Assembly: GCA_017506865.1 (NCBI GenBank)
Contig: JAFCMP010000017.1
Location: 1 to 64,000 of the forward strand
Origin: Tribonema minus
Taxonomy: Eukaryota > Sar > Xanthophyceae > Tribonematales > Tribonemataceae
Reading direction: 5' to 3'
DNA length: 64,000 nt
The position numbers were made by a program, and so were the translations under genes. Shown here in pieces: positions 12,860 through 61,400 of this stretch; position 1 is the stretch's first letter; every line of letters starts with the position of its first letter. The notes beneath the pieces are model-generated. The model did not search any database. It was not told where the DNA came from and saw nothing but the letters and a program-made list of their open reading frames with translations.

Positions 12860-15800
12860 CTAGTTCTCGCGCTCGATGATGAACATGGCCAGCGCGCGCA
12901 GCGCCGCGGCGCGCTCGCCGTACGGCTCGAGCGCCCCCAGCGCGGCGTCGACGAGCCGCCGCGCCTCCGCGCGCGCGCCGTCCATGCCCATGAGCTTGAC
13001 GTACGTCGTCTTGGAGACGGCCTCGTCCTTGCCGGCCGTCTTGCCGAGCTGCTCCGTCGTCTGCGTGCAGTCGAGGATGTCGTCCGCGACCTGGAAGGCG
13101 AGCCCGATTGCGTCGCTGAACGTCTCCATCGCGGCCACGTCCTTGGGGGACGCGCCGCCGAGGATGGCGCCGGCGCACACCGCCACCTGAAAGGGGGGCG
13201 GCCGGGGGGGGGGGGGGGGGGGGGTATCGGTAATTGTGAGTAGTGGCAGTTTGGGCCTCGAAGGGGAGGGGGGGGTTATCGGTTGTTGTGAGTTGACAGC
13301 TTGAGATGCGAAGGGGGAGGGGGGGGGGGCATTCAGTCGTTGTGAGTAGTGACCATGCGAGCTGGACTATGCACAAGGACACCTGGCAGTGGCGCAGACC
13401 GCCACGTGGCGAGGGGGCATCAGTCATTGTGGGTACATATGTAGCAACCATGTGAGCTGGATTAGGCACACAAGACTATGCACATGAACACCTGGCATTG
13501 GCGCGCAGCGCGGCGTGCGGGGAGGAAAGGGGGGCGGCGGCAGTCAGAAGAACGTCAGTCTTGATCATTGCAACCACAGCGCGGCACGTGCCGGGGGGGC
13601 AGGGGGGGAGGGGGGGGGGGAGGGGGGGGCTGGTGTACGCGCAAGAGTCAGTTGCTGCGGACATCCATGTTGCGGTTGGTCGTATCAAGTCACGCTGGCG
13701 AGACCCTCGAATTGGTTGGAGGAAAGGGCTGAGGCAGCCATTCTTCAACTGCAACTACGTAAAGCAGCACACCTGCGCACTGCACTCAGGAAGACTGGTG
13801 CATCGCCTGTGTTGAAGGCATGAGCATCAAGGCCACACCGCAGAGAGCATCTGTTGCTGACACTAGGATCGAGCTCAACCGGCCAACAGCATTTTCCGAC
13901 ACTTGCATCCGCATGAACTGCACACTTGAAGTTGAAGCACACGCTCTCGACCGCAGTCATCGACATGAAGCACGCTGCGCGCCTCAGCCTCTGCTTGTGT
14001 GCATTTCACGTCAGCACAGAAGCGCGCAGAGCACGCCTGCGCCTGCTGCGCATCTTGCAGAAGCAGTGCAGTGCGCCAGCGCATTCATGCTTTCCCTACT
14101 TGAAGTCCAGCGGTAGCATGCAAACCCTAACCGTAACCGCAACCCTAACGTGCGCCCTTAGTCGAGGCACTTTGGCAGTTGTCAAATACGGTGCCGTCGC
14201 GGTCTCAAGTTCACCCACGACTTGAAGAGACAGAAACGCTCGTAGATGAGATACGTCCTGCGTCTCACTGCTTCAAGAAAGTACTTGTTCAGGGACCTAC
14301 AGCTTTCGGGAAGCAGCGGCCGAGGCGCAGCGCTGCCCCCTACTGGCGCTAGCATAGGCACAGCCGTTCGCCCAGCTTGTGCTCATGAAGCCGCCTGAGG
14401 TCTTTCAGCGCGGTGCCATCGCTTCACATGCATGCATAACTTCAACACGAGGTTCATACCGTGGTACCTCAATAGCAACACTGGGGGCGAGTACAACCAG
14501 TCACTAGCTGCCACTCACGTCCAGCAGCGCGCCCGCTTTGTGGCCTGTGAATCACGCTCTCCTCGTGACATGCGTATCCACAACTTCAACAACTATGTTT
14601 TTGGCCAAACCACTTAACATGCCCCTGGCGCTGCCGGCTCTTCTCACGTTCAGCAGCAAGTCCAGTGCCTGTGAACCCACCTCGGGTCCCCTCCAGTATC
14701 ATCATGACCTGCATTCGTGGAACTTACTCTTTGTTGCTGCACCACTTCAACATGCTGCCGGCGCTATTCGCGTTCAGCAGCGCGCCCGCCCTGAGCCTGC
14801 GCATCCACCTCAGGTCCTCCAGCGTGGTGTCGTCGCGGCCAATCCACAACAGCTTTAACAACAGAAGCTTCACTACTTCAAATGACCGGCACTACTCACG
14901 TTGAGCAGCGCGCCCGTCTTGTGCCTGTGGATCCACCTCAGGTCCTCCAGCGTGGTGTCATCGCGGCCCTCAAGCTCCAGGTCCATGGCCTGCCCCCCCG
15001 CGAGCCCCAGCTCCCCCACCGCCTCGCCGAGGCGCCGCAGAACTTCAACTACGCGCTCCGCCGGCACGCCTGGTGACGCTCCCATGCAAGAAGAGGCGGA
15101 GAAAAGGTGAGGTTCGGCAAGGCGACCTTGTGGGGCGTGAAGAAGATGCGGATCTTGTGAAGTGGTAAACTTGAAAGGCGCACATGATGTTGAAGCATAC
15201 GTGAGGCGTAGATTGTGATAGCATGTTGTGTCGTTCAAGGTCTTGTTCTATAAATGAATGCCGTGTGAGGCGCTCCGCAAGGGGTCATCTGCATCAAGGT
15301 GCGGAGCGCAACTCTGGTTTCAATCAAACTCGGTGATTTTGAGTTGAAAGATGATTGCAGATGTATTGAGCTAGCGGATATGTTCAGGGCAATCTTGCTG
15401 ATGCGGTTTGCCAACTTCTCGTCGGCACAGTTCAAGTGCCGCTCGATCACTGTCTTGCGTGCATGTCCGGCGCTTAGGGTTAGCGTTAGCCCACAACCAG
15501 GCCACCTGAGCAACAGAGCGCACGCCATCGCACTCGGCAGACGGCGCTGCGCGCCATAACACTCGGCATTGCGCTACGCCGCAAACGTGCAACATGACAA
15601 TTGTTTGCAATTGATCTTCAGCGCCGCCGCCGGCGCTGCCATGTAGCAATTGCCGATCGACACACACTGTGGTGCCATTGTCACCCGCATTGTTGGTTGC
15701 GGCGTGTAGTTCAATTCGTCGTCTGTCGACATGTACTTCAACATGGCCTGGTATTCAAGCCACATAGTCGACTTTGACATGCTGTGTATTTCGGTGTGTT

Positions 15801-58400: not shown

Positions 58401-61400
58401 CCACGCCGGTTGCGCATCGGCCATGCCATATGTGAAGCTTGGCGGTCCTCGTGAGCTGTGCGATTTCACACCAGCCCCCGTTTGCAACTTCAAGCATTCT
58501 ACTTACCACCAACTTCAGCATTCTACTTACCACGCGCCTCAAAGTGTCCCACAGCACGCGTAGTGCGCATGTTCCATAGCACGCCTGCACCAAATCGAGT
58601 ACGTGATCGTGATGACAGCGTGCAGTGTGCGCCATCCCTCAGCCCTGCCGCATCTCACCCTAACACTAACCCTAACCGGCGCAGGTGAACTATGAAGAGG
58701 GCAGCGGCGACAACGCCTACAGCAGCATGGAGTGGACCCTGACGGAGGTGCGCCTAACCCTAGACCTAGTTCTAACCTGAACCTGATGTAAGGTGTGCCC
58801 AACCCTGAACCTAATCCTATTCCTAGCCCTACCAGCCCTAACCCTAGCCCTACCCGAGCACGTGTGAGGATGGCACAGTGAGCAGCTGGCGCAGCCTCAA
58901 CCCTAACTCCACAAGCAAAACATAACCCTAGTCAGTGGTCGGCGCTGCAGCGGTGGCGCCAGAAGGGGAGGATTAGGGTTAGTATTAGGGTTTAGGGTTA
59001 GGGTTAGGGTTACGGTTAGGGTTAGCGGGTGTCCCTGGCCAGCCGCTTCGTGCGTTCATACAGGTGTACCTGTGTCGGCAAGTGTTAGGGTTAGGGTTGG
59101 CCCCAATCCTCACCTTCATCTTCTCAACAACCCTTTTGGGGGCAGCACTGGGTTGGTCCTGACCCAAATCTTACTGCAACCTTCCATCAGAATTGCAAGT
59201 CTGACATCAGCTCTACCCGTGCCAGGCATCTTATCGAGGGTAAGGCGTGAATCCAATCCCAACGCTGGAGGTCAAACGCAACCCTGGAGGATAGGGTCGG
59301 ATTGGATCCTCTAACCCTAAATCTAACCCTCGAACCGAAGACAGCAGACCAGTGCCCCCCCGCCCCCTTTGATTTGGCTGCCTTAGGCGTCTGTGCATGA
59401 AGCGTGAGCAACATTCCTTGAACGCGCGGGCAAAGTTTACGGAAAAACTATCCGAAATATATGCAGCTGATCGTCGCGTACGATACTTGTCCCGGCACAA
59501 TTACATGAGCGCCGACAAAGGCTGACTGGCGACGCCCTTGACGTGTGTGTTGAGCGCTGCCTTCCGCTCCACAACTTCAAGATCACCAAATTACTTCAAC
59601 AATGACCTGCCCGCCCGACCGCGGCCGCTGGCGCATGATGATGCAGTGCGCGCTCTTGAACTTGCACTCTCGCACGGCGCAGGTGCTGTAACGCTGCAGC
59701 TCCTTCACTTCACCATCACCAATTTACTTCAACAATGACCTCACCGCCCGACCGTGACCGCCGCCGCATATCAATGCAGTGCACTCTCTTGAACTTGCAC
59801 TCTCGCACGGCGCAGGTGCTGCATGCTCTGCAATTGATTATCGCGCTACGCTCAAAGCTCATTCGACCTGACTGCTCAGCCACCCGCAGCGCATGCGGAT
59901 GCACGCGTGCTTTTGAACTGAGCGCAGGCGCTGTCATGCTGCAACTGCTGATGACGCGCCACTCAAAGCTCAGTCGACCTGCCTGCAGCTCAGTCACACG
60001 CAGCGCTTGCAGATGTGCGCGTGCTCTTGAATGCGTGCTCTTGAACTGGCTCACTTGCGGCGCAGCGAATCCCGCAACAGTCAGAGGTGTCACTCAACTT
60101 CAACTTGAACTTTGCTGTTGCGGGCAGGCGGAGGGCAAGAGCGTCCACCTGGGGCGATGGGGCCACCAGATGGTGGCGTGGAACGACACAGTCGTGGTGA
60201 GCGCAGTGGGCCGCGCGCGTATGCTGCTCTTTCTTTATTTCGTGCGAGGCACCTTAGCCTGTCCGCTTCAGCAGGCGTTGAGGCGCTGACACCAGGCTGA
60301 TACTTGAAATACGTAAGATTGAAAAAAACACTGTTTGACTCGTGGCCAACTGCCAGCGGCGACCACGGTTATTGGTGGAAGGCTTTTGCGGCTAACCACA
60401 CCTTGTCACCTAGACTAGAGCTCTACGATCTTCTGATTCGGTTCCATCAAAACGAGCCCGCGGCAGCGGTTGTCATGCATCGCGCATCAACTCATACGTA
60501 GTACCGCCAGGCCGCAGTTTGAGTCTCGTGCTTGGCCTGATCGCTGCTTTCAGAAGCAAGTTGCGGCAGCGCCGAATGGATGGTGCGCGCACATGTGCAA
60601 CGAGCGTCACACTGAACTTTCATTGACGGCGCCGCTACACCGCACTCGAGCGCTTTGCGCGCGCGCGCCGAATGCAAATGACGCAGCTTGCATCTCATAC
60701 CGCAGCAGCCATGACACCAAGACAACAAAGTTATGGTGGCACTGTTTGACTCGCGGCCAATTCCTGCAGCAGCGGCGACCACGGTAATTGGTGGGAGGCA
60801 TTTGCAGCTGACCACACCTTGTCAACTAGAGCCCTACGATCTTGTGATTCGTTTTCATTATGCACTTACAATGAGGTTACGCGCTTCTCCTCATGTACAG
60901 GCTGCGGACGGAACCACGACACAAGTCCCCGCGCTGTACCTGATAGCGGGGGACACGTCAGGGGAAGGGGCGCTCGCCAACGACGTCTTTGTCAGGTACT
61001 CGTACGCCGGGCTGTATGCTCCTCGAGTATAGGGTACTGCGCGTTGTTTGCGCGGTATTTGATGTGGCATGCGCGAGGTATCAGAGACATTTACGAGGCC
61101 AGTGTCAACGATGTCCACGACACGTCGAAGTGCATGTCAATACTGCTCGCCCGGGGCGAGAAAACCCTGGGCGATCGCTATGCCGCTTGCTACAGGTGTC
61201 CATATCTCGCCGCAGGGATGACACTATGCATGGTCCAGCACACTTCATGACATTGCCGCGCGGCATCTCCCCCATTTGGACAGCCTCGTCCACCCAGGCC
61301 ACGGAAAGTGGTGCTGCGCCTTCGTGTTTTGTGCAATATAGCGTGTGCTCAAAGTCAGAGGTGACTGGGGCAGTCCCAGTTACACACTGCATGCGCTGTT

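Follow-up and report, generated by a model that had tools for sequence, protein, structure and literature searches.

Introduction

Tandem duplications that take in a splice junction have been described before. In the potato RdRp gene, a tandem duplication across an intron-exon boundary made a new intron (Ma et al. 2016, PMC4974935), and in Drosophila tandem duplication was the source of novel intron positions in 5 of 31 cases (PMC2891723). The new introns of Daphnia contain internal direct repeats, and repeated staggered breaks were proposed there as a passive trend towards lengthening (PMC4202315). Short direct repeats at exon-intron borders, which are widely reported, have likewise been read as products of break repair (Rogers and Bendich 2025, PMC11782384). 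As to mechanism, CST-guided fill-in by Pol alpha-primase at breaks with 3' overhangs leads to small direct tandem duplications for which homology is not needed (PMC8355091). Here we describe a window, the whole stretch of 64,000 bases at positions 1 to 64,000 of contig JAFCMP010000017.1 of Tribonema minus (57.6% G+C, no N; eukaryotic as judged from its spliced genes), in which introns of four genes, those of GGPPS (a polyprenyl synthetase), the ribonucleotide reductase (RNR) large subunit, TIPIN/Swi3 and a Kelch-repeat protein, carry tandem copies of the edges of their own exons.

These arrays resemble the potato case in that a local tandem duplication takes in a splice junction together with adjacent exon and intron (PMC4974935), the Drosophila cases in that coding sequence near splice motifs is locally duplicated in tandem (PMC2891723), and the Daphnia introns in that direct repeats are left while introns lengthen passively (PMC4202315). 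On the other hand, the potato duplication was one event that made a new intron and the Drosophila cases concern the gain of intron positions, whereas here existing introns are lengthened, by copies that the present reading of the genes leaves unused, in many introns of four genes. The exon-shared repeats of Daphnia measure 4-12 bp and belong to newly gained introns, and those of Rogers and Bendich are repeats of 4-30 bp at intron borders, taken as insertion footprints, rather than arrays of one junction; the blocks reported here run from tens to more than 100 bp and contain whole junctions. The CST/Pol alpha system was worked out in mammalian cells, on nickase-made breaks with overhangs of about 43-54 bp, and was not linked to splice junctions. 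A sequence-only reading of the window knew of no described system with splice-junction duplication of this generality. To say that no such process is described is too strong, as PMC4974935 and PMC4202315 precede it; what stands is that, among the papers listed in searches of an open-access library, we recognised none that describes such arrays in numerous introns of a single genome. Individual duplications across a junction, and the passive growth of introns through the repair of breaks, are in print; the density and generality seen here look new.

Results

The sample is one window with six modelled genes, whose 40 introns sum to 31,456 bases; a MULE-like gene at 1-5 kb lies outside this set, as does the 3' end of TIPIN. 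Gene models were drawn up manually, guided by reading frames and splice signals, and were checked via translation. Self-BLAST of the window, with an E-value cut and a complexity filter, returned 65 near matches in direct orientation and one inverted, so that the copies are direct and close to their source, the pattern of tandem duplication. The sequence-only reading had proposed comparing exon edges with their own introns against mismatched pairs. We ran this comparison on all 40 introns, by local alignment of the adjacent 100 exon bases. At a score of at least 40, matches to the own intron were obtained with 11 of the 40 donor edges and with 3 of the 40 acceptor edges, against 0 of 1124 for each edge among pairs of exon edge and intron from different genes and 0 of 40 for each edge in the reverse-complement control. 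When an edge was compared with the remaining introns of its gene, 2 of 436 donor pairs and 6 of 436 acceptor pairs matched; five of these six acceptor matches are to adjacent introns, because one short exon supplies both edges. With windows spanning the junction, a score of at least 42 was reached by 12 donors and 7 acceptors out of 40 each, the corresponding controls being 0 and 3 of 1124 for other genes and 2 and 1 of 368 for non-adjacent pairs of the same gene. A chance origin of the matches between exon edges and their own introns is excluded. Duplication by the assembler is unlikely, to judge from the letters alone, because the junction-copy blocks are 76-97% identical and many of the spacers between them differ.

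Joining the matches yields 28 local direct-repeat arrays, 23 of them in the six genes, two intergenic, one in the MULE-like gene and two after TIPIN, in sequence that is repetitive and probably coding. A splice junction lies within 17 of the 23 genic arrays (RNR 10, Kelch 5, GGPPS 1, TIPIN 1), with 12 donors and 6 acceptors covered; the Kelch array at 48309-48901 spans a whole short exon and is counted for both. Classes were taken from BLAST only, and two arrays that are interior by BLAST (51643-52094 and 53371-53811) gave junction-spanning copies by alignment, so that 17 of 23 is the lower count. Exon-edge copies in the introns of these four genes, and the minimum of 15 separate arrays that had been counted by eye, are thereby confirmed, as is the range of one to six copies per array, the maximum being six donor-edge copies in RNR intron 2. 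Other parts of the first description need correction. The array at 59566-60031, at the end of the range given (14511-60066), is without a junction in the event test described below. Two genes, that of poly(A) polymerase and the one at 22.9-25.7 kb, are free of arrays (0 of 5 introns, against 19 of 35 elsewhere; Fisher p = 0.049). In place of the stated period of 100-150 bp, steps from copy to copy measure 88-238 bp with a mean of 140 in 33 of 37 steps, a list typed by hand from which four of the 37 values (317, 287, 270 and 218) were dropped as likely multiples or weak, and in which the values 88 and 103 come from self-BLAST. Local direct-repeat blocks make up 21.4% of the 31.5 kb of intron sequence and 2.6% of the intergenic DNA.

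The RNR gene, on the minus strand, holds the largest set. Donor edges are repeated for exon 2 (36766-37524; six copies in intron 2, five with GT and one with GC, separated by at least four kinds of spacer), exon 3 (36069-36221; one copy in intron 3), exon 4 (35267-35431; one in intron 4), exon 7 (33755-34097; two in intron 7), exon 8 (32837-33142; two in intron 8) and exon 11 (30675-30915; two in intron 11). Acceptor edges are repeated for exon 4 (35612-35823; one copy in intron 3), exon 8 (33206-33518; one in intron 7, with telomere-like repeats), exon 10 (31744-31982; one in intron 9, a 51-bp block at 96% with its AG kept) and exon 12 (30093-30465; copies in intron 11). In the Kelch gene, on the plus strand, three copies of the whole short exon 3 with both its junctions lie in intron 3 (48309-48901), one copy of the acceptor edge of exon 5 lies in intron 4 with its AG lost (50193-50448), and donor edges are repeated for exon 5 (50501-51543; five to six copies in intron 5), exon 6 (52177-52676; two in intron 6) and exon 8 (54255-54872; three in intron 8). 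A further array in Kelch intron 5 (51643-52094), with an offset of about 105 bp and telomere-like repeats, reaches the acceptor of exon 6 and was counted as interior. The remaining two concern the donor edge of GGPPS exon 3, in the numbering of our model, with copies in intron 3 at steps of 128, 124 and 129 (14369-14968, minus strand), and the donor edge of TIPIN exon 2, with one copy, a 75-bp block at 95% in which the donor is kept (41018-41229, plus strand).

At a score of at least 38 we find 46 copies, 28 of which span the donor and 7 the acceptor; exon edge and adjoining intron are both present, as a duplication across the junction gives, and the first description, that many copies carry a splice site and some intron, holds. 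Identity of donor copies to the real junction is 0.923 at positions -40 to -11 of the exon, 0.868 at -10 to -4 and 0.833 at -3 to -1; at the GT it is 0.857 (48 of 56 positions), at +3 to +6 it is 0.817 and further into the intron about 0.79 in aligned columns. Any block whose end fell within 6 bases of the junction was lengthened by ungapped extension, which may add mismatches there. That the exon part is better kept than the intron part is expected if the real exon is under selection and all else drifts. Copies had been said to decay with distance from the exon, which the 27 donor copies compared do not support (Spearman -0.29, p = 0.14); in RNR intron 2 the identities run 0.96, 0.97, 0.92, 0.94, 0.90 and 1.00 with increasing distance.

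Are the copied sites themselves of use to the gene? The sequence-only reading had raised the possibility of decoys that buffer or regulate splicing, for instance by holding U1 or by producing poison transcripts, and some properties of the copies would suit such a role. The 28 donor copies read GT in 20 cases, GC in 6, and AT and TT in one each (the real donors of the 40 introns are 39 GT and one GC); six of the 28 are within 1 bit of their own real donor or above it, and 11 score at or above the lower quartile for real donors. Among all 1874 intronic GTs, decoys included, 0.7% reach the real-donor median. Use of a decoy would cause a frameshift or a stop in 27 of 28 cases. The seven acceptor copies have six AG and one AA, with 13 of 14 positions kept, too few to judge. 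However, there is no sign of selection on the decoy donors, because their dinucleotides are preserved to much the same degree as the bases around them: the GT stands at 0.857 beside neighbours at 0.82-0.87, and the whole stretch from -3 to +6 at 0.82-0.86, against 0.92 in the exon part. Splice-site strength is, moreover, inherited through copying, and two of the genes have no decoys at all. We regard selected decoys as a very unlikely explanation, and evidence for the regulatory role once suggested is lacking.

The spacers and intron parts are less uniform than the exon blocks. For 26 copies whose exon part is at least 0.80 identical, the adjoining 50 intron bases were compared with shuffles; in 17 copies they are related (p < 0.02), and in 8 they do not rise above the shuffles (p >= 0.05). 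In TIPIN intron 2 the 75-bp block is followed by a 62-bp spacer unlike either side (p = 0.28 and 0.64; p = 0.013 in the intron-part test, in which a few block bases are included), and the acceptor copy in RNR intron 3 is a 78-bp block with a 57-bp spacer unlike both sides (p = 0.55 and 0.33). The spacer in RNR intron 9 weakly resembles its right-hand side (p = 0.015). RNR intron 2 has seven exon blocks that are 0.85-0.97 alike, with spacers alike in units 0 and 3 and in units 1, 4 and 5.

A sharp block beside an unlike spacer, as in TIPIN and in RNR intron 3, is what long target-site duplications of mobile or introner-like elements would leave. Against such elements, no spacer family common to different introns appears in the listed far self-matches of the window, a list from which a filter dropped long matches, the poly(A) polymerase copy described below among them, and which consists mainly of telomere-like and GC-rich repeats, a dispersed Kelch-intron repeat and similarity among Kelch-repeat coding sequences. 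Many arrays are, besides, continuous tandem units, and we know of no element with variable target duplications of 50-100 bp; this origin deserves little credence, slightly less than that of selected decoys. Weaker still is the case for relics of intron birth through a duplicated exon segment containing AGGT (the Rogers model). Its starting point is indeed a tandem duplication of exon sequence (PMC4974935). It predicts uninterrupted exon sequence within the intron, and the donor-edge copies here run into intron instead. None of the 14 introns with a match contains a clean exon-exon fusion; only in Kelch intron 5 does an alignment cross the exon-exon joint, and it does so through a gapped tail, worth 5 points on top of a donor match of 60 points and equalled in 4% of shuffles. 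We hold such relics to be extremely improbable. A retro-copy from mRNA, for which exon-exon fused sequence was sought and none clean was found, was rejected.

The position of the arrays was compared with random placement of a 140-bp unit (event test), using the 23 genic arrays as events. Depending on the assumed intron length and on the detection handicap, and in one setting on a hand estimate of 6.9 kb of inserted DNA, random placement spans a junction in 30-44% of cases, against 17 of 23 observed (P from 0.00002 to 0.004). Duplications internal to introns were simulated to be detected at a relative rate, rho, of 0.74; with this bias included the expectation is 37-44% and P = 0.0003-0.004. 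Donors exceed acceptors by 12 to 6 in the event count (p = 0.24) or by 11 to 3 in the own-intron count (p = 0.057). The donor surplus is likely a matter of tolerance, for an inner donor lies behind the working donor, whereas an inner acceptor lies before the working one and would perhaps be met first. The last 60 exon bases at array-bearing donors are richer in G+C (0.69 against 0.62; p = 0.027, one of five features tried and uncorrected).

Clusters of at least three telomere-like hexamers (TTAGGG) number 31, with 29 in introns and none in the 15.9 kb of intergenic DNA. They occur in Kelch, RNR and GGPPS introns, for example at 30991-31018, 33318-33379, 57767-57869 and 58753-59025. The 7-mer ACTTCAA/TTGAAGT occurs 65 times against 7.0 expected, on both strands and mostly in introns. 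In array-bearing introns, 21 of 37 cases fall no more than 25 bp from the end of a block, where rotation gives 12.1 (p = 0.001); counted by introns, the figures are 11 and 7.5 (p = 0.019). We draw no conclusion from it, several other frequent 7-mers being found near the ends equally or more often. Kelch intron 6 contains at 52364-52455 an insert that by eye resembles a foldback element, with imperfect terminal inverted repeats, and introns 3, 4 and 13 of the Kelch gene share a dispersed repeat that occurs in either orientation (48917-48982, 49660-49758, 60329-60447 and 60740-60864).

Gene models and neighbouring sequence

The GGPPS gene (12860-17026, minus strand; Pfam PF00348, 5.7e-61) is modelled with four exons, without its upstream exon or exons, and its stop was read at 12860-12862. 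The RNR gene (27434-38846, minus strand) has 16 exons, and its spliced reading is uninterrupted over 801 aa, covers the Pfam domains and leaves the decoy segments out; the barrel domain is matched at residues 215-736 (PF02867, 6.2e-212). For TIPIN/Swi3 (39377-41940, plus strand; PF07962, 2.2e-18) the first three exons are modelled. The Kelch gene (46442-62334, plus strand) is a spliced model of 16 exons with weak Kelch matches: the whole protein scores above the cut-off (PF13964, 4.7e-06), and single stretches each fall below it. The two genes without arrays, both on the plus strand, are that of poly(A) polymerase (17830-21645; three exons, spliced model with a family match) and an unnamed spliced model of four exons (22946-25715; no Pfam match). 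Searches with the TIPIN protein in viral contigs and with the poly(A) polymerase protein in genome contigs found no relative.

Elsewhere in the window, 9501-10453 (inverted) and 10633-11213 hold part of the poly(A) polymerase gene copied in inverted orientation, comprising its last exon, 3' flank and the end of intron 2 at 85-91% likeness, and beside this copy are two copies, in opposite orientations, of the first exon of the 22.9 kb gene (73-78% alike). The MULE-like transposase gene at 1-5010 has several exons, its MULE match being weak and sub-threshold and a PDZ match sub-threshold; this region contains a 235-bp tandem duplication at 98% (1408-1880) and one of 42 bp (1313-1400).

Discussion

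Which process would produce such arrays? We consider serial local tandem duplication with passive retention, most likely through fill-in and end joining of staggered breaks, the best account, with a probability of roughly 0.55; the sequence-only reading had offered intron growth as one possible mechanism, and duplication across the junction remains the best reading of it. Introns would have grown through successive local tandem duplications of about 90-190 bp each, many straddling a splice junction and thus taking in exon edge, splice site and the start of the intron. As the outermost junction would remain usable and the protein unchanged, the event would be tolerated, and the inner copy would turn into intron and decay as a passenger. 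Repeated events, together with re-duplication of units already duplicated, may then build arrays of up to six copies. At the molecular level the likeliest source would be staggered double-strand breaks whose ends were filled in and joined, in some cases with filler DNA added. The data show the copies themselves, with their direction, size, junction content, apparently neutral decay and surplus over the controls; use of the outer junction and an origin in break repair are inferred. Such a process has precedent in Daphnia (PMC4202315) and in CST/Pol alpha fill-in (PMC8355091). A block flanking filler, with little homology at the break, is expected of it, and block plus unlike spacer is seen in some pairs; the 8 of 26 intron parts that are unrelated are also as filler or replacement would give. 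Judging by their letters, unlike spacers could be filler added at the time of repair or the outcome of later spacer replacement, and either would do. The intronic telomere-like clusters fit a history of breaks in these introns, given that in primates and rodents such insertions are described as break-repair products, some with target duplications (PMC2246262).

Several observations weigh against this account. Mean identity of the intron parts is 0.67, where the exon parts lead one to expect 0.80 and unrelated sequence gives 0.55, which is not the pattern of whole-unit duplication; copy 2 of RNR intron 2 has an exon part at 0.97 and an intron part at 0.55. The breakpoints of the duplications are mostly too old to read. 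The fit of the telomere-like clusters to a history of breaks is qualified by their positions, for they keep away from the ends of the array blocks, at a median of 157 where 56 is expected (p = 0.994), and a single gene holds 21 of the 31. As for the junctions, the excess weakens to P = 0.03-0.12 if interior duplications are detected at a rho of 0.4, and a window test found no junction excess, with 16 of 39 donors, 14 of 38 acceptors and 334 of 1027 interior windows positive (p = 0.30 for donor against interior), in steps of 25 bp that are not independent and with one donor and two acceptors masked and dropped. We give the event test more weight because windows inside an array are counted as interior even where the array started from a junction. 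The excess over random placement holds in most event settings, on 23 events, and we take it as tentative.

Both the window test and the better detection of exon-anchored copies (rho 0.74) speak for the arrays being ordinary minisatellites, spread by slippage or unequal exchange uniformly over non-coding DNA, with junctions caught through a unit that is large relative to the intron and through the better visibility of old copies of constrained exon. The higher-order structure of RNR intron 2, in which 0 and 3 and 1, 4 and 5 share spacers, is also of the kind that unequal exchange gives. Yet arrays are rare in intergenic DNA (2 in 15.9 kb), junction arrays exceed random placement in most settings, and their steps are confined to 88-238 bp where slippage is expected to give a spread dominated by short steps. 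Ordinary minisatellites are on balance unlikely, if a possibility to be taken seriously. At the opposite end stands a process directed at junctions, in which transcribed splice junctions, donors above all, suffer breaks and duplicating repair at a much higher rate than the rest of this genome, and the growth of an intron comes chiefly from serial copying of its 5' junction. A donor is covered in 12 of 23 genic arrays against about a quarter expected (P = 0.005), a null chosen after seeing the data, while acceptors, in 6 of 23, are near that expectation. The telomere-like clusters, present in introns and absent from the intergenic DNA, also accord with it. We think such a directed process improbable, short of dismissing it, and return to duplication with passive retention as the account we prefer.

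The lengthening of introns is usually attributed to transposons. In this window a large share of intron sequence derives instead from the host gene by copying, frequently from the gene's splice junctions. Should this prove true across the genome, introns would hold a record of their growth that can be counted, and naturally occurring sets of rival donors (six behind one RNR exon, five of them GT) would be at hand for tests of spliceosome choice; one could also ask whether mutation is concentrated at splice junctions.

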